DNA from: Gimesia fumaroli
Lineage (GTDB): Bacteria > Planctomycetota > Planctomycetia > Planctomycetales > Planctomycetaceae
Assembly: GCF_007754425.1 (NCBI RefSeq)
Contig: NZ_CP037452.1
Coordinates: forward strand, 7,543,164-7,607,163
Reading direction: 5' to 3'
DNA length: 64,000 bases
Positions 32,359-39,084 of this stretch are shown piece after piece. A program made the translations under genes and the position numbers. Under the pieces are notes generated by a model. The model ran no database searches, was not told the DNA's origin, and was given only the letters and a program-made list of their open reading frames with translations. Numbering within the stretch: position 1 is the stretch's first letter; every line of letters begins with the position of its first letter.

Positions 32359-32542
32359 GGTTCCGCAGTTCCTGTAGTCGATTCAATGTAAGTGATTGCG
32401 AGTCTTGCCGGGGCAAGATATGCTACGCATTATGGTTCTATCACGTCTGAAAACGCAAACGACAACACCCCTCCGCAGGATTTCGGTCTTCCGTCCGCCA
32501 CAATGTGTTTCCTGCGCGCTGGTATACAGGAATGATTTTTCA

Positions 32543-32731
32543 ATGAGTCAAAAACAAGAAAAAACAAAATACTATTACTTTATCGATGTGGATCTACGCA
32601 CCCGACAAATCATCGGCTGGGGCAGCGAGTCGCGGGATGAAGTGGAGATTTATATGACTAAAGGTTTCCATAGAATATTTATGTCAAAGGGACAATACAA
32701 TAAGCTGATCAAAGCGCTTGAAGAGTACTGA
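32543..32731 (+). CDS. small hypothetical protein
   Basis: A 62-residue soluble protein from the ATG at 32543, with AGGA about a dozen bases upstream. The longer frame from 32396 adds unlike sequence. The YYYFIDVDLRTRQIIGWG phrase suggests a compact beta-hairpin protein. It is not recognised. Confidence 0.5.
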   Translation: MSQKQEKTKYYYFIDVDLRTRQIIGWGSESRDEVEIYMTKGFHRIFMSKGQYNKLIKALEEY

Positions 32732-32859
32732 GTGAAAGACCAGCGTGTAACAAATCGTCCTCAGCAGCAGGTTCCAAAAAATCGACGAGATAAATGTTGC
32801 AGACTTACTAAGAATTTGGGTGATTAAAATGTGTCAGGTCCATTAAGTAACCAGCACCT

Positions 32860-33117
32860 TTATTTCTTTTTAGGAAAAAGCATCGCAAAACAGAAAAACA
32901 AAAAGAGATGTACTGCGAAGGCCATCAGGTAAATGACGATGATGACGGGAAATAACCAGAACGACTTCCACAAAAATGAGAAGTCGACTTGTTCTAAGAG
33001 CGCATACATTGCCAACAGGCTGAGTCCGAAAGCAATTCCCCCACAAATCATTCGAAAGCTGGACAATGAAAATTCTCTGAGATCGTCTTCTTGTGCATGA
33101 ATCACGAGACCAAATAG
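32860..33117 (-). pseudogene. 3' part of a membrane-protein gene split by an IS4-family insertion
   Basis: This fragment encodes the C-terminal 85 residues of a small membrane protein (LFGLVIHAQEDDL..., with two strongly hydrophobic segments and a basic PKKK end). A GTG at 33105 could start a truncated product. Reading leftward, the sequence continues in the same frame from the 5' fragment at 37311-37457 once the insertion element and one copy of the 9-bp duplication are removed. The joined gene has 134 codons plus stop. The family is not recognised. Confidence 0.85.
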
Positions 33118-33126
33118 TGGTAGCGA
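33118..33126. repeat. 9-bp target-site duplication, left copy
   Basis: TGGTAGCGA, repeated exactly at 37311-37319 in the same orientation and directly abutting the terminal inverted repeats of the IS4-family element. A duplication of about 9 bp is usual for this family. Confidence 0.9.
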
Positions 33127-33163
33127 CGAATGGCACTGCCTATTGTAGCGTAACAGTTTGCGT

Positions 33164-34582
33164 TCATACGATCGTCCTCCTTTGTTGATGGTAATGGTAT
33201 CTTGGTTGCTTCAGCAAAGCCAGCACTTTGGTGCGGCGTTTATTGGCTCTGGGTTCTGTTCGACCAGTGCGATGCCCCACACGTTCGCTGCTGGGGACCT
33301 GTTGTCCGAGTGCAACCAACTCATCCGTGAGCTTCGTGACGGCTCCCAACAACCAACTGGCAGCCAGCATCTGTTGCGTGGTGGCAAACGAGAGGGAACG
33401 CGGATCACGGTCTGTTGAGAGACTGCTTTGCAGCATTTTTAACCGAATCAGATTATACGCCAGCAGGCACGACCAGAGTTCGGTGAGCACCATGTCCGGA
33501 GACTTCGCACGCAGAATATCCATCCCCAGCGAACACTTGATGCTGCGAATATCCAGTTCGATCAGCCAGCGGCTCTGATACACGGCGGCGATCCAGCGCG
33601 CCGGGTATGCTTTCCGATCTGTGATGGTGGTGGCAATCGTAAACGTTTTGGCGCGATACCCCGGCTGACTGATCTGCACATCGACCAGACGCAGAGTGAG
33701 CGTCAGCGGTTGTTGCCAGAATTCCTGACGGGTCATCCAGGCAGGACGTTGCAATGGTCGTGACCAGGTCACCAGTCGCTCCCGTTTACTCAGCCGCCGT
33801 GCGGCTTGCGGATGATCGTCACGCAGGTGATGATTCTTCATCAAAACCTGAACGCCCCGCGCACGGCACGCACTCACCAGCCAGTACGTGCAGTAATACG
33901 AGTCTGCCACCAAGGTATCTCCCGGTCGGAGTGCATCCAGCATTTGCCAGAACAGGGCCGTTTCGCCACTGCCTTTTCCGCTGTAAGGCCCGCTCACTAG
34001 ATCCACCAGCAGTCCGGTTGTCATCGAGATCAGAGAAACGCAGCGTAGAACGGGGAACCCGAGCCCCGGTTTCTGAGTCGGGTTCTGTGGATAGGCACGC
34101 TGATTCTTGGGAGTATCGGCGGCCGTGAGGGTGAAGCCATCAACCAGCAGAATGCGACCGCCGGTGCTCCGTGATTTCACATCAGCGATGCTGGAAGGAC
34201 TGAGGCGTGCCGCCGACTGCTCTCTGGTCTGGACACGATTCTGATCACAGGCCGCTTCCGCATCAGCGGCAATTTGTTGGACAATGTCTCGAATGACGAT
34301 AAACGGGATTTTGAGTCGCGCCCGACAATAAGCACTGGTATTCGTACTGCAAACCCGTCGGCCCAGCGCGGCACACAGGCTGGCAACACGGATCACGGCC
34401 GCTTTACAGCTGCGTTGCTCGCCGGAAAAGAAGACCTGAGAAATTAAGGCCCAGAGCGTGATTGCGGGTGTGTAAACGTCATCCTCGCCGGAACCAAAAT
34501 TGATTTCGTGTTCATCAAAGGTTTGTTGCCAGCGCTGGTCATCAATCACATCAGATAGCGGAAGCGAAGCATTTTGCATCAT
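33164..34582 (-). CDS. IS4-family transposase
   Basis: A 472-residue DDE transposase. The first Asp is in ILLVDGFTLTAADTPKN, the second in TLVADSYYCTYWL, and the Glu in the IS4 signature YQSRWLIELDIRSIKCSLGM (Y-2-R-3-E-6-K). All catalytic residues are present and the frame is uninterrupted, so the enzyme may be functional. The IS66 insertion lies 54 bases upstream of its start codon, separating it from most of its native leader. Expression now depends on IS66-borne or internal promoters. Confidence 0.92.
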   Translation of the reverse strand: MMQNASLPLSDVIDDQRWQQTFDEHEINFGSGEDDVYTPAITLWALISQVFFSGEQRSCKAAVIRVASLCAALGRRVCSTNTSAYCRARLKIPFIVIRDIVQQIAADAEAACDQNRVQTREQSAARLSPSSIADVKSRSTGGRILLVDGFTLTAADTPKNQRAYPQNPTQKPGLGFPVLRCVSLISMTTGLLVDLVSGPYSGKGSGETALFWQMLDALRPGDTLVADSYYCTYWLVSACRARGVQVLMKNHHLRDDHPQAARRLSKRERLVTWSRPLQRPAWMTRQEFWQQPLTLTLRLVDVQISQPGYRAKTFTIATTITDRKAYPARWIAAVYQSRWLIELDIRSIKCSLGMDILRAKSPDMVLTELWSCLLAYNLIRLKMLQSSLSTDRDPRSLSFATTQQMLAASWLLGAVTKLTDELVALGQQVPSSERVGHRTGRTEPRANKRRTKVLALLKQPRYHYHQQRRTIV

Positions 34583-34628
34583 CGAACGTTTGAAAAGAGA
34601 AAATGATGCTGCATTCGAATGGGAAGCT

Positions 34629-34636
34629 GATATAAA
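34629..34636. repeat. 8-bp target-site duplication of IS66, left copy
   Basis: GATATAAA, repeated exactly at 37099-37106 next to the other end of the IS66 element. An 8-bp duplication is the IS66-family hallmark. Confidence 0.92.
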
Positions 34637-34693
34637 GTAACCGTTTCAGCAAATACACGGTCTATCAATGACTGAACTGAATCGCTGCCGGGT

Positions 34694-36268
34694 TCAGCGT
34701 CGGCGGGTGTAGTGGGCTTCCGGGTGTTGCTTCAGCCATTGGTCTGGCAGCAGTTCTTCCAGGCGATCGGCGGCGTGATCGGTGATCCGCGTCAACACAT
34801 CGCGCAGATAGGCAAACGGTTCCACTTCGTTTGCTTTGCAACTGGCCATCAGGCTGTAATGCACGGCGGCCGCCTGGCCGCCCCGGTCGCTGCCGACGAA
34901 CAGATAATTCTTCCGGCCGAGGGCACAGGGACGCAAGGTGCGTTCGGCCAGGTTGTTGTCAATCGACAGGATGCCCTCGGTACAATACCGCGTAAACCCG
35001 GACCAGCGGCTTAACAGATATTGAATCGCCGCTGCCACCGGACTTTTCGGTAACAGACTGCGCGCGGTTTCCGTCAACCAGTCGCAGAACTTTTCCAGTA
35101 TCGGTAGCGCCTGTTTCTGTCGCAACTGCCAGCGGCGTTTCCACCAGTGTTCGCAGTCCGCCGGCTGTGGCAGATCCGACTTCAACACGCCGGCTTCCCG
35201 TTCGATCGCGTATAACTGCTGGATAAACAATAATGCCCGGTGAGCGGCTTCCGGCTGCACCGTCCGCGCATCGTAAAACTTGCGTCGCGCATGCGCCCAG
35301 CACAAGACCTGGTGAATTCTGCCTGACCGGTACAGTTCTTCGTAGCCGGCATACGCGTCTGCCTGCAGATAACCGCAAAAGTGTTCTAAAAACGCCTGGG
35401 GACCGGCGCGTTCCCGGTTCGGGGTGAAATCATAGACCGAATACGGGTGCGCGACATCGCCACAGTAAACCCAGAACCGGCCGGTCCGCGTGCGGGAAAG
35501 CCGTTGGTCCTGGACGGGAATCGTCGTATCATCCGTATGTACGACGCTGGATTGCAAAACCCGGCTTTTCATCAGATCAATCAGCGGTTGCAGTAATTCT
35601 GCGGTTTCCAGGACCCAGCGGCTCATCGTGCTCCGCGAAAGCTGTACGCCATTCCGGCTGAGAATGGATTCATGACGATACAGGGGGAGATGATCTGAGT
35701 ATTTCCCCACCAGGATCGTCGAGAGCAAGCCGGGGCCGGCGAAGCCTTTGGCAATCGGCCGGGCAGGAACTGGAGCCAGCGCCACATGCTCTTCACACTC
35801 CCGGCACGCGTATTTGAAACGTACGTGCTCGATCACTTTCAGGCTGGCAGGAATGAATTCTAACTGTTCGTGGCTGATTTCTCCGATCCGCTGCCGTGTC
35901 TGGTCGCAGCAGGGACAGCGTTTTTCCGATTCGGTCAGGTCATGCTCTACCCGTTCCCGAGGCAGATGATCGGGCAGCTTGTTACGGCCACCGCCACGAC
36001 GGCGATGTGCGGAAACCGTCGTGGGAGGAGGTTCATCGTCCTCGGGCTCGGCCGCTTCCTCTGGAGTATCGGGTTCGTCAAACAGACTCATTTGATTGGG
36101 GGCGATCTTTTCAGAACGGGCGCCAAACCGCTGTCGCAGCAGCCGATCAATGAAATGTTTGAGTTGCTCGACTTCCCGCTGTTGCTCTCCCACGGTCTCA
36201 CCCAACTGGTGAATCATATCATGGCAGGATTGGACGTCGTTCGGCAATGAGGATCGTTTCTGGTTCAT
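34694..36268 (-). CDS. tnpC: IS66 transposase TnpC
   Basis: A 524-residue IS66 transposase. The N-terminus has a leucine-rich coiled coil (IDRLLRQRFGARSEK). A zinc-finger-like CPCCDQTR...CREC segment follows. The DDE residues are in VVHTDDTTIPV, LQADAYAGYEELY and DNNLAERTLRPCALGRKNYLFVGSDRGG. The family catalyses excision and integration of the element. Intact length and residues suggest function. It is the last gene of the tnpABC operon, 44 bases after tnpB. Confidence 0.95.
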   Translation of the reverse strand: MNQKRSSLPNDVQSCHDMIHQLGETVGEQQREVEQLKHFIDRLLRQRFGARSEKIAPNQMSLFDEPDTPEEAAEPEDDEPPPTTVSAHRRRGGGRNKLPDHLPRERVEHDLTESEKRCPCCDQTRQRIGEISHEQLEFIPASLKVIEHVRFKYACRECEEHVALAPVPARPIAKGFAGPGLLSTILVGKYSDHLPLYRHESILSRNGVQLSRSTMSRWVLETAELLQPLIDLMKSRVLQSSVVHTDDTTIPVQDQRLSRTRTGRFWVYCGDVAHPYSVYDFTPNRERAGPQAFLEHFCGYLQADAYAGYEELYRSGRIHQVLCWAHARRKFYDARTVQPEAAHRALLFIQQLYAIEREAGVLKSDLPQPADCEHWWKRRWQLRQKQALPILEKFCDWLTETARSLLPKSPVAAAIQYLLSRWSGFTRYCTEGILSIDNNLAERTLRPCALGRKNYLFVGSDRGGQAAAVHYSLMASCKANEVEPFAYLRDVLTRITDHAADRLEELLPDQWLKQHPEAHYTRRR

Positions 36269-36312
36269 GTTCCACGTCTTAACATAATCGTTGTCAGGCG
36301 GGAACTGTTTTT

Positions 36313-36675
36313 TTATGAAGTCGATACTTTTTCTGAAATCTGATAGCGTTTTCTGCGCTGCACGCTGGTCAGGTCGATGCCCTGCAGCAGGAGCCCCAGG
36401 TCGATTGAGGACAGTTGTAGGCCATGTGTGCCCTCCGGGCTGGAGAGACGCTGATATGTGCCCGCTTCCAGCCGTTTATACCAGATGGCCAGACCATCGT
36501 GGTCCCAGTACAGCAGCTTGATCCGATCCTGTTTTTTGTTGAGAAACACAAATAGTCCCCCGTCGAGTACGTTTTGCTGCAGGTAGACTTCGGTCATTCG
36601 CAGGAGGCCGTCAAAACTTTTGCGCATATCGGTGGGGACCGTGCAGAAATAAATGCGGGTGGGCAGATTCAGCAT
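36313..36675 (-). CDS. tnpB: IS66 accessory protein TnpB
   Basis: A 120-residue IS66 Orf2-type protein. Its motifs are IYFCTVPTDMRKSFDGL, FVFLNKKQDRIKLLYWDHDGLAIWYKRLE and the C-terminal RKRY basic end. It is required for IS66 transposition in studied elements, although its biochemical role is not settled. It overlaps tnpA by 7 bases, implying translational coupling. Confidence 0.95.
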   Translation of the reverse strand: MLNLPTRIYFCTVPTDMRKSFDGLLRMTEVYLQQNVLDGGLFVFLNKKQDRIKLLYWDHDGLAIWYKRLEAGTYQRLSSPEGTHGLQLSSIDLGLLLQGIDLTSVQRRKRYQISEKVSTS

Positions 36676-37016
36676 GCGCGCTGCTCCAGCGCGGCGAGCA
36701 CGGTTTCGAGCGTGGTTTGATCACAGCCGTTTCCGACGCGAACCGAGGTGCCCTGTGAGAACACGATTTCAATCGGCGTGGCAGGGAGTTGGACTTCAAC
36801 GGGCAGAAAGGAAGCTGCAGCGGTTGTCTCGGCATCCCGCTTTTTCAGTTCCCGTCGCCAGTAGTGGTAAGCTGGTTCGCTGAGTCCCTCACGCTGACAG
36901 AAGGCACGGATCGAGAGTCCGGACTGCAGTCGGTCAGAAAGGGTTTGTCGCCAGAACGCTTCACGGTTCGGGTTCCGTCGCTGGTCGGCACGCGGGGTTG
37001 GCTGGGATGCGGGCAT
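36669..37016 (-). CDS. tnpA: IS66 accessory protein TnpA (helix-turn-helix)
   Basis: A 115-residue protein. The N-terminal half is a helix-turn-helix of the IS3/IS66 type (SGLSIRAFCQREGLSEPAYHYWRREL). The C-terminal half is the small beta domain typical of IS66 TnpA (VEVQLPATPIEIVF). It is the first gene of tnpABC, starting 82 bases from the right end of the element. Confidence 0.9.
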   Translation of the reverse strand: MPASQPTPRADQRRNPNREAFWRQTLSDRLQSGLSIRAFCQREGLSEPAYHYWRRELKKRDAETTAAASFLPVEVQLPATPIEIVFSQGTSVRVGNGCDQTTLETVLAALEQRAC

Positions 37017-37098
37017 CGCTTTCGCTCCTGAATATGCTGGTGGTTAAAACACATGCAGAATACGATACACGTCAAGGTGTATTTTGTGGGCCGGTTAC

Positions 37099-37106
37099 GA
37101 TATAAA
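37099..37106. repeat. 8-bp target-site duplication of IS66, right copy
   Basis: GATATAAA, the exact counterpart of 34629-34636, directly after the IS66 right end. Confidence 0.92.
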
Positions 37107-37115
37107 TGGCATAGA

Positions 37116-37160
37116 ACCTTCCTTGGTCAAATGTTTTACCCACACCAACCCAAGGAAGGT
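37116..37160. other. hairpin in the leader of the IS4-family element
   Basis: Perfect 11-bp arms ACCTTCCTTGG (37116-37126) and CCAAGGAAGGT (37150-37160) with a 23-base loop. Several TGCCA/TGGCA units follow (37162-37226). The region is inside the IS4 element but right of the IS66 insertion, so it belonged to the IS4 transposase leader. It contains no gene. Confidence 0.6.
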
Positions 37161-37310
37161 CTTGCCAGAACGCAGCATAATGCCAGGAAAGGTTTTGCCA
37201 AACACAATTTCCAGCGAACTGGCAAAAAATCAGAAAATTAAAACCGTGACTGCGTCACCCGGGAGTCGTTGCGCAAACACAAACTCAAAAAACAGCGGCA
37301 GTGCCATTCG

Positions 37311-37319
37311 TGGTAGCGA
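37311..37319. repeat. 9-bp target-site duplication of the IS4-family element, right copy
   Basis: TGGTAGCGA, the exact counterpart of 33118-33126, abutting the right terminal inverted repeat. Confidence 0.9.
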
Positions 37320-37457
37320 GAATAACATTCCGTGAAATGCAAACAACTCAAAGAGAAATCTAATGTTTTCTAGGTGGCCTGTCGTCCACACCACTGCAAG
37401 TATTGACAGGAATGAAGTGAGTTCAAACATCAGTGCATAAAAAAATAACTTGCCCAT
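37311..37457 (-). pseudogene. 5' part of the membrane-protein gene split by the IS4-family insertion
   Basis: This is the N-terminal 49 codons of the interrupted gene, starting at the ATG at 37457 (MGKLFFYALMFELTSF...) and ending in Ser-Leu-Pro. Those three residues are encoded exactly by the duplicated target TCG CTA CCA. Reading on into the element gives a 75-codon frame by chance. Joined to the fragment at 32860-33117, it yields a 134-residue protein with about four hydrophobic segments and no recognised family. Confidence 0.85.
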
Positions 37458-37719: not shown

Positions 37720-39084
37720 ATGTCTGATGCTTTCCTTCCTCACCAATTGTCTGATTCTCTGTCCCGCCGTGATGTTTTGAAACTGGGAGCCGCCGCGATG
37801 GCTGGGTCTGCTGGTTTGAACTGGCTGCAATCGGATCTCGGTGCCGCGGAAACGAAACGGCCGCAGGTCGCCGCCATCTATACGCAGTTCTTTTACTGCT
37901 CGCACGCGTATCATATTCTGCATCCCTTCCTGGGGCCGTATCTGGTTAATGGCAAGATTCAGCAGCCGCAGTGTGATGTGCTCTCGTTTTATGGCGATCA
38001 GTTTACCGACCGCGATCTCTCGCGCGGCGTGGCGAAGAAGTATGACATTCCCATTTATAAAACGATCCGCGAAGCACTCTGTGTGGGCGGCAATGAACTG
38101 GCCGTCGATGCCGTGCTGTCGATTGGCGAGCACGGCGATTATCCCGATACGAAATTCGGGCAGACCAAGTATCCCCGCAAACGGTTCTTTGATGAAATCG
38201 TAGCGGTCATGAAACAGTCGGACCGTTTTGTGCCGCTGTTCAGCGACAAGCATTATTCCTATCGCTGGGACTGGGCGCGGGAGATGTATGATACTTCGCG
38301 GAAGTACGGCTTTCCGATGATGGTTGGCAGCTCGGTTCCGCTGGCACAACGCACGATTCCGCTGGAGATTCCAGAGGGGACGGAACTGGAAGACGCCGTC
38401 TCCATTCATGGCGGGCCGATCGAGAAGTATGATATTCACGGGCTCGAAGTGCTGCAATCGATGGTCGAATTTCGCAAAGGGGGCGAGACCGGCATTTCGT
38501 CCGTCCAGTTTTTGAAAGGGGACGACCTGATCAAAGCGGGCAAAGAGGGACGCTGGTCGATGAAGCTGGCGGAAGCCGCCATGCAGGCCGAACTGGGGGA
38601 TGCCAAACGGGGGCTCTTTGATCCGATTGGCGCGGAAGGCACAACGGAACCGCACGGCATTCTGCTGGAATACAAAGACGGGTTCCGCGCGACGATGCTC
38701 AAGATCGGTTCCAACGGCGTGCGCTGGAACTTCGCCTGTCAGGTCAAAGGAGAACCGCAGCCGAAAGCGACGACGTTCTTCCCCGGCCCGTGGGGGAACC
38801 GCAATCTGTTTCGCGCGTTCGCGCATGCGATTCAGCATTTGTTCGTCCACAAGGAAGAACCGTATCCCTGTGAACGGACCCTGTTGATGACGGGGGCCCT
38901 GGATGCCGCCATGCATTCGTACTTCGAAAAAGGCTCGGCGAAAATGAAGACGCCGGAGCTGGAGTTCTCCTACAAGCCGAAAAATTTTAATCAGTTTCGG
39001 GAAATGGGTGAGTCCTGGAAGGTGATCACGGCGGAGATGCCGTTACCGAAAGATTTTGTGGAAGCCGATCCGGGACCAAAATAA
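37720..39084 (+). CDS. Tat-exported oxidoreductase-like protein
   Basis: A 454-residue protein with a twin-arginine signal (LSRRDVLKLGAAAMAGSAGL) ending near an AAETK region, so it is exported folded. The mature part (IYTQFFYCSHAYHILHPFLGPYL..., DAVLSIGEHGDYPDTKFGQ, FVPLFSDKHYSYRWDWARE, VGSSVPLAQRTIPLEIPEG) is a conserved planctomycete type. It loosely recalls Gfo/Idh-like proteins without a clear nucleotide-binding motif. I do not assign an activity. I chose the ATG at 37720 over 37693 because the Tat motif is then closer to the N-terminus. Confidence 0.65.
   Translation: MSDAFLPHQLSDSLSRRDVLKLGAAAMAGSAGLNWLQSDLGAAETKRPQVAAIYTQFFYCSHAYHILHPFLGPYLVNGKIQQPQCDVLSFYGDQFTDRDLSRGVAKKYDIPIYKTIREALCVGGNELAVDAVLSIGEHGDYPDTKFGQTKYPRKRFFDEIVAVMKQSDRFVPLFSDKHYSYRWDWAREMYDTSRKYGFPMMVGSSVPLAQRTIPLEIPEGTELEDAVSIHGGPIEKYDIHGLEVLQSMVEFRKGGETGISSVQFLKGDDLIKAGKEGRWSMKLAEAAMQAELGDAKRGLFDPIGAEGTTEPHGILLEYKDGFRATMLKIGSNGVRWNFACQVKGEPQPKATTFFPGPWGNRNLFRAFAHAIQHLFVHKEEPYPCERTLLMTGALDAAMHSYFEKGSAKMKTPELEFSYKPKNFNQFREMGESWKVITAEMPLPKDFVEADPGPK

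Follow-up and report, generated by a model that had tools for sequence, protein, structure and literature searches.

Two successive IS insertions, IS66 within IS4, in a probable small membrane-protein gene of Gimesia fumaroli

Which events divided the reading frame found at 32860-37457 of the Gimesia fumaroli window, and was it a gene that they divided? The window (the whole stretch analysed, 64,000 bases, covering 7543164-7607163 of a 7,704,373-base single-contig genome) contains at this place two insertion sequences, one inside the other, each with its own target duplication and in an order of arrival that can be read from other copies, and a joined frame that is open once both are taken away. 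We consider it highly likely (with a probability of roughly 0.9) that two successive insertions took place: that of an IS4-family element into a small membrane-protein gene, and then that of an IS66-family element into the IS4 copy.

The whole insert spans 33128-37309 (4182 bp; bounds set by a comparison of 22 copies). The signals by which a preliminary description had recognised it are all present, namely 14-bp inverted repeats (CGAATGGCACTGCC at 33127-33140, with its perfect reverse complement at 37297-37310; the pair lengthens to 15 nt in a repeat search) and adjoining 9-bp direct copies (TGGTAGCGA at 33118-33126 and 37311-37319); a rough random expectation puts the occurrence of such a combination in the window at approximately 1e-7. 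A minus-strand ORF (33164-34582) encodes a transposase of 472 aa, which matches the IS4-family profile NF033592 (NCBIfam, 4.2e-48; 164 bits, the cut-off being 115) and Pfam DDE_Tnp_1 (6.3e-23), and carries the IS4 transposase signature Y(2)R(3)E(6)K at residues 335-349 (YQSRWLIELDIRSIK). Its residues D148, D227 and E342 (the two Asp assigned by hand) are separated by spacers of 78 and 114, within the D(60-110)D(100-150)E ranges given for the IS4 family in the passages of PMC2266710 drawn on here.

An IS4-family insertion by target duplication, as formerly described, is thus borne out, while the view of the insert as a single element has to be given up, since 2462 of its 4182 bp, along with an 8-bp duplication, constitute a nested IS66-family element. 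The IS66 family has 8-bp target duplications and ends starting with GTAA. The nested element (34637-37098) has the ends GTAACC...GGTTAC and lies between two plus-strand copies of the 8-bp sequence GATATAAA (34629-34636 and 37099-37106). Its minus-strand genes encode a TnpC-type transposase of 524 aa (34694-36268; NCBIfam NF033517, 6.6e-135; Pfam PF03050, 2e-93) and the accessory proteins TnpB (120 aa, 36313-36675; NCBIfam NF033819, 6.3e-26; Pfam PF05717) and TnpA (115 aa, 36669-37016; NCBIfam NF047593, 5.6e-19), all three scoring above the cut-offs of their NCBIfam profiles. It thus shares with its family the TnpA, TnpB and TnpC-type genes as well as the 8-bp duplications, and differs from it in nothing out of the ordinary, being merely nested inside IS4. 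Near-identical copies occupy seven sites of the genome (six besides the window), five of them with exact 8-bp duplications and two (L024 and L025) with none. At L025 (985-3960) the IS66 copy adjoins, without an 8-bp duplication, a 516-bp remnant of IS4, a junction that suggests a rearrangement between IS elements.

With IS66 and one of its 8-bp copies removed, the IS4 element of the window measures 1712 bp and differs at no position (1712/1712) from L009 and L010, two copies that are uninterrupted. Because the outer sequence equals that of uninterrupted copies, IS4 was inserted first and IS66 second; judged by sequence identity, both insertions appear to be recent. In the first step, the 1712-bp element would have entered a lineage-specific gene by a cut-and-paste type of transposition, duplicating about 11 bp of target and ending the gene after codon 46. 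In the second, the 2462-bp IS66 would have entered the IS4 copy just upstream of the transposase ORF, duplicating 8 bp and presumably detaching the IS4 transposase from the DNA that had lain upstream of it.

The left end of the IS4 element occurs at 14 places of the genome (the window included), and so does the right end. The exact ends were established from 22 copies in which both are present: the window copy, 12 others from the same genome (one of which, L019, is internally deleted) and nine from relatives, these nine being the remainder of the 18 loci read from the 24 returned (the other six were short fragments); some additional full-length copies in the relative G015 lie outside this comparison. 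The base next to the core (GAATGGCACTGCC...GGCAGTGCCATTC) was found to vary with the target (left T in L016, left G in L106, right C in L015), and hence the repeat shortens from 14 to 13 bp and the duplication lengthens from 9 to 11 bp. The element begins with GAATGG (ends GAATGG/CCATTC), the outer C/G being target DNA, and the earlier boundaries (33127-37310), while resting on repeats that do exist, take in one target base per side.

In the window, the 13-bp terminal inverted repeats accordingly occupy 33128-33140 (GAATGGCACTGCC, plus strand) and 37297-37309 (minus strand), and the target duplication, GTGGTAGCGA[C/G], matches at 10 of 11 positions between its left copy (33117-33127, GTGGTAGCGAC) and its right copy (37310-37320, GTGGTAGCGAG; both given on the plus strand). 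Counted outward from the core, exact direct duplications of 11 bp were present in 10 of the 21 other copies and of 12 bp in one (L017), and were absent from 10. These lengths fit the ~10 bp, or about one helix turn, of the IS4 family. At L013 (1139-3134), the 11 bp of duplicated target after a full IS4 copy lead straight into a second, identically oriented copy, of which the first 273 bp are present, an arrangement which indicates that one insertion took the flank of the other copy as its target.

Within the family, subgroup IS4 is described in the passages of PMC2266710 used here as having ends of the form -AATR--------WTW, duplications of 10-13 bp, the YREK motif and a typical size of 1400-1650 bp, some of its members showing a marked insertion specificity in target arms. 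The Gimesia element shares with this subgroup the YREK motif and the duplication length. Its ends agree with the consensus in part, AATG at positions 2-5 fitting and WTW at positions 14-16 being absent (TAT on the left and GCT on the right in the window element). Since its 1712 bp fall outside (above) the typical size range, we do not place it in subgroup IS4.

As had been proposed, removal of the insert along with one target copy leaves an open 134-codon frame on the minus strand, made up of an N-terminal part of 46 codons (37320-37457) and a C-terminal part of 85 codons and stop (32860-33117); the frame stays open whichever 11-bp copy, left or right, is retained, the choice affecting a single residue (Phe/Leu). 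The joined ORF has a mean hydropathy of 1.12 and five membrane-like segments above the usual hydropathy threshold, while among 901 shuffled ORFs (100 aa or longer) none had at least four such segments or equalled that mean. From this composition, it seems that the joined ORF was probably a gene, and we infer that it was an expressed one. At its start, no obvious strong ribosome-binding site was seen.

The alternative, in which the 134-codon frame would be a chance ORF in non-coding DNA and no gene was broken, is in our view unlikely, even if several observations speak for it. Length alone is weak evidence for a gene (when the empty site was shuffled 4000 times, 124 of the results held an ORF of at least 134 aa), GC by codon position in the joined ORF (0.44/0.30/0.47) differs from that of both neighbours (0.59/0.41/0.68 and 0.67/0.41/0.73), and the protein has neither homologue nor family; the last point also counts against the view of a split gene, as does the one position at which the 11-bp copies differ. 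The hydropathy and the number of membrane-like segments, both unmatched among the shuffled ORFs, argue against a chance origin, and so does the fact that the membrane pattern spans both halves, which are in frame only once the duplication is removed.

An intact 134-codon homologue, to which the preliminary description had looked for support, was encountered at E <= 0.001 in none of 58 other genomes (16 of them from the same genus), and the two fragments were not seen as separate genes in relatives. The joined protein had no homologue in the genome_contigs, viral_contigs or plasmids sets, and matched no Pfam or PHROGs family. Across 391 other genomes of the phylum E <= 0.05 was reached by 21 weak matches (the strongest, at 2.8e-4, had 24% identity and an internal stop), which we take to reflect membrane composition. 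The tblastn matches at L059, L060, L061 and L063 (E 0.22, 31 residues) were discarded as relatives: they lie inside a conserved protein of ~790 residues that resembles, by eye, an outer-membrane efflux protein.

The flanking gene at 37723-39081 was matched in every one of the 17 genomes of the genus, the present one among them. The two nearest of them, G014 (97%) and G007 (91%), have no counterpart of the window from 32345 to ~37603 (37630 in G007) and carry other ORFs there; G011 retains only 32369-32742 of that stretch, at 83%. The lack of a homologue, together with the presence of other genes at the locus in relatives, leads us to regard the ORF as a lineage-specific orphan, which the insertion would have broken later. 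The conserved neighbour gene itself is split over two frames with a TGA in G001 (C1:3786623-3787974; L048, L049), and G000 (C1:2318408-2318828; L139) holds a partial second copy consisting of the start of the gene at 37723-39081 and upstream DNA, the upstream part at 82% identity over 91 bases.

An assembly error between IS copies could be suspected in a genome with ~14 IS4 places and seven IS66 copies that are almost identical, the more so as the outer duplication has one mismatch. We hold this to be very improbable: the genome is a single closed contig, the outer duplication is near-exact, the inner one is exact and the frame is restored, whereas joining the wrong copies would usually bring together flanks that have nothing to do with each other. 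Least probable of all is that the 4.2-kb unit is one IS4-family composite transposon moving whole with IS66-type passengers, for although its outer ends are intact, intact copies could provide transposase and passenger genes are reported for the IS231 subgroup of the family (in the part of PMC2266710 drawn on), we reject it on account of the inner element, with its own ends and 8-bp duplication, and of the uninterrupted IS4 copies identical to the outer part; moreover, IS66 is present at six other places outside any full IS4 copy, and a search of the genome turned up no second unit of 4.2 kb.

The IS4 element usually goes to REP-like palindrome arms, and the window copy lies at one of its poorly matching sites. 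Two sequences, AAAAGG-GGTCAGGAC and AAAAGG-TGTCAGGAA, recur in similar form and in both orientations beside the other IS4 copies. When scored against 15-base REP-like arms (one reference, AAAAGGTGTCAGGAA, was derived from the flanks of IS copies, which brings some circularity into how copies of the G015 and G008 types score; the other was derived from intact palindromes), 12 of the 21 other copies had a perfect arm in at least one flank, two scored 12 and seven scored 9 to 11, while among 5000 random sites of the window none exceeded 12 and three reached it. By an earlier and less decisive score, the 11 copies with exact duplications fell into five at 17/17 and six at 10 to 12. The window copy scores 10/15 (reached by 184 of 5000 random sites) and 10 by the earlier 17-base score (equalled or beaten by 12.7% of random sites), and is among the poorly matching sites. 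The pattern of flanks points to a preference for palindrome arms, and not to type 1 specificity; we infer that it is the arm of the palindrome which the transposase recognises.

The GGGGTCAGGAC arm was found independently as intact palindromes (arm, a loop of ~13-18 bases, arm) in G014, G005, G013 and G009, and also around ORFs in G014 and G001 that we take to be RAYT-like; the one ORF of this kind that was profile-scanned matched Y1_Tnp at 5.1e-11. At three loci of these two genomes (L121, L122, L129), these same palindrome arms, inverted, flank the RAYT-like ORFs. The sequence AAAGGGGTCAGGAC occurs nine times in this genome (its reversed control not at all), and seven of the nine sites touch an IS4 copy or lie within 25 bp of one, counts on which we rejected a reading of the flanking motif as a REP present here in high copy number. 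Some relatives have the sequence more often, without the IS (30 exact occurrences in G014, 14 in G013 and 8 in G009). A different DDE_Tnp_1 element (2.5e-18; L072:190-250 and L013:33-1138), with the ends CCAATCCTGTTC/GAACAGGATTGG, is also located at GGGGTCAGGA, and thus two IS elements use the same kind of site.

REP targeting by IS4 elements is already known from ISRm22 of Sinorhizobium meliloti, an IS4-family element inserting in REP palindromes (PMC1525189) and belonging to subgroup IS4Sa (PMC2266710). Compared by features, the Gimesia element and ISRm22 have in common the IS4 family, REP-type targets and some copies without direct repeats, which in ISRm22 are ascribed to recombination between copies (PMC1525189). 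They differ in that the duplications of the Gimesia element measure 11 bp (12 in one case) and lie in the arm, with a perfect arm in 12 of the 21 other copies, whereas those of ISRm22, as given in the excerpts of PMC1525189 used here, measure 6 bp and lie at the palindrome axis, with all nine copies in REPs. In the open-licence papers searched, no report of IS4 REP-arm targeting in Gimesia was found.

How, then, did the copies without an exact direct duplication arise? In eight of these ten, the flanks are inverted copies of each other within 3 mismatches of 11 (and exactly so in L020 and L109), a level that L018, though it has a direct duplication, also reaches with 3 mismatches; in L011 the flanks match directly except at 2 positions, and those of L087 conform to neither arrangement. 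The conventional reading of inverted flanks would be recombination between copies in opposite arms, as for ISRm22 (PMC1525189). Given that eight of the ten fit inverted flanks, we also considered whether the element attacks an extruded REP hairpin as well as the duplex arm. Both arms would then be cut, which would remove the loop and leave one element between the outer arms, with target copies in inverted and no longer in direct orientation; this we regard as improbable. Flank contiguity was examined, among the matches listed, in three of the six same-genome copies without a duplication, and L014 alone was informative. One of its flanks aligns (among the matches listed) at 98.6% over 586 bp to G014, beside an intact palindrome; in the 15 kb fetched around that palindrome, no match to the other flank is present. 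L014 is thus more readily explained by recombination between copies than by an event in place, and speaks against attack on a hairpin. Its right flank also contains ~103 bp of an interspersed repeat family of the genus, with many further copies in G009, G010 and G013 (~72-81% identity, among the matches listed).

The observation is sound, and the event itself is ordinary genome wear, although the IS4 element usually lands in short palindromes and not in genes. The locus makes an annotation case, in which two fragments of what would be one orphan gene enclose a nested IS pair whose ends were corrected through comparison with other copies; as the window site is a poor match to the arm, this would be why an ORF was broken here. 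Of greater use, as a by-product, is a Gimesia IS4-family element that prefers REP-like arms, some of which also flank the presumed RAYT-like genes. Such arms would be fairly harmless landing sites, and the window copy illustrates the outcome when the element misses them.
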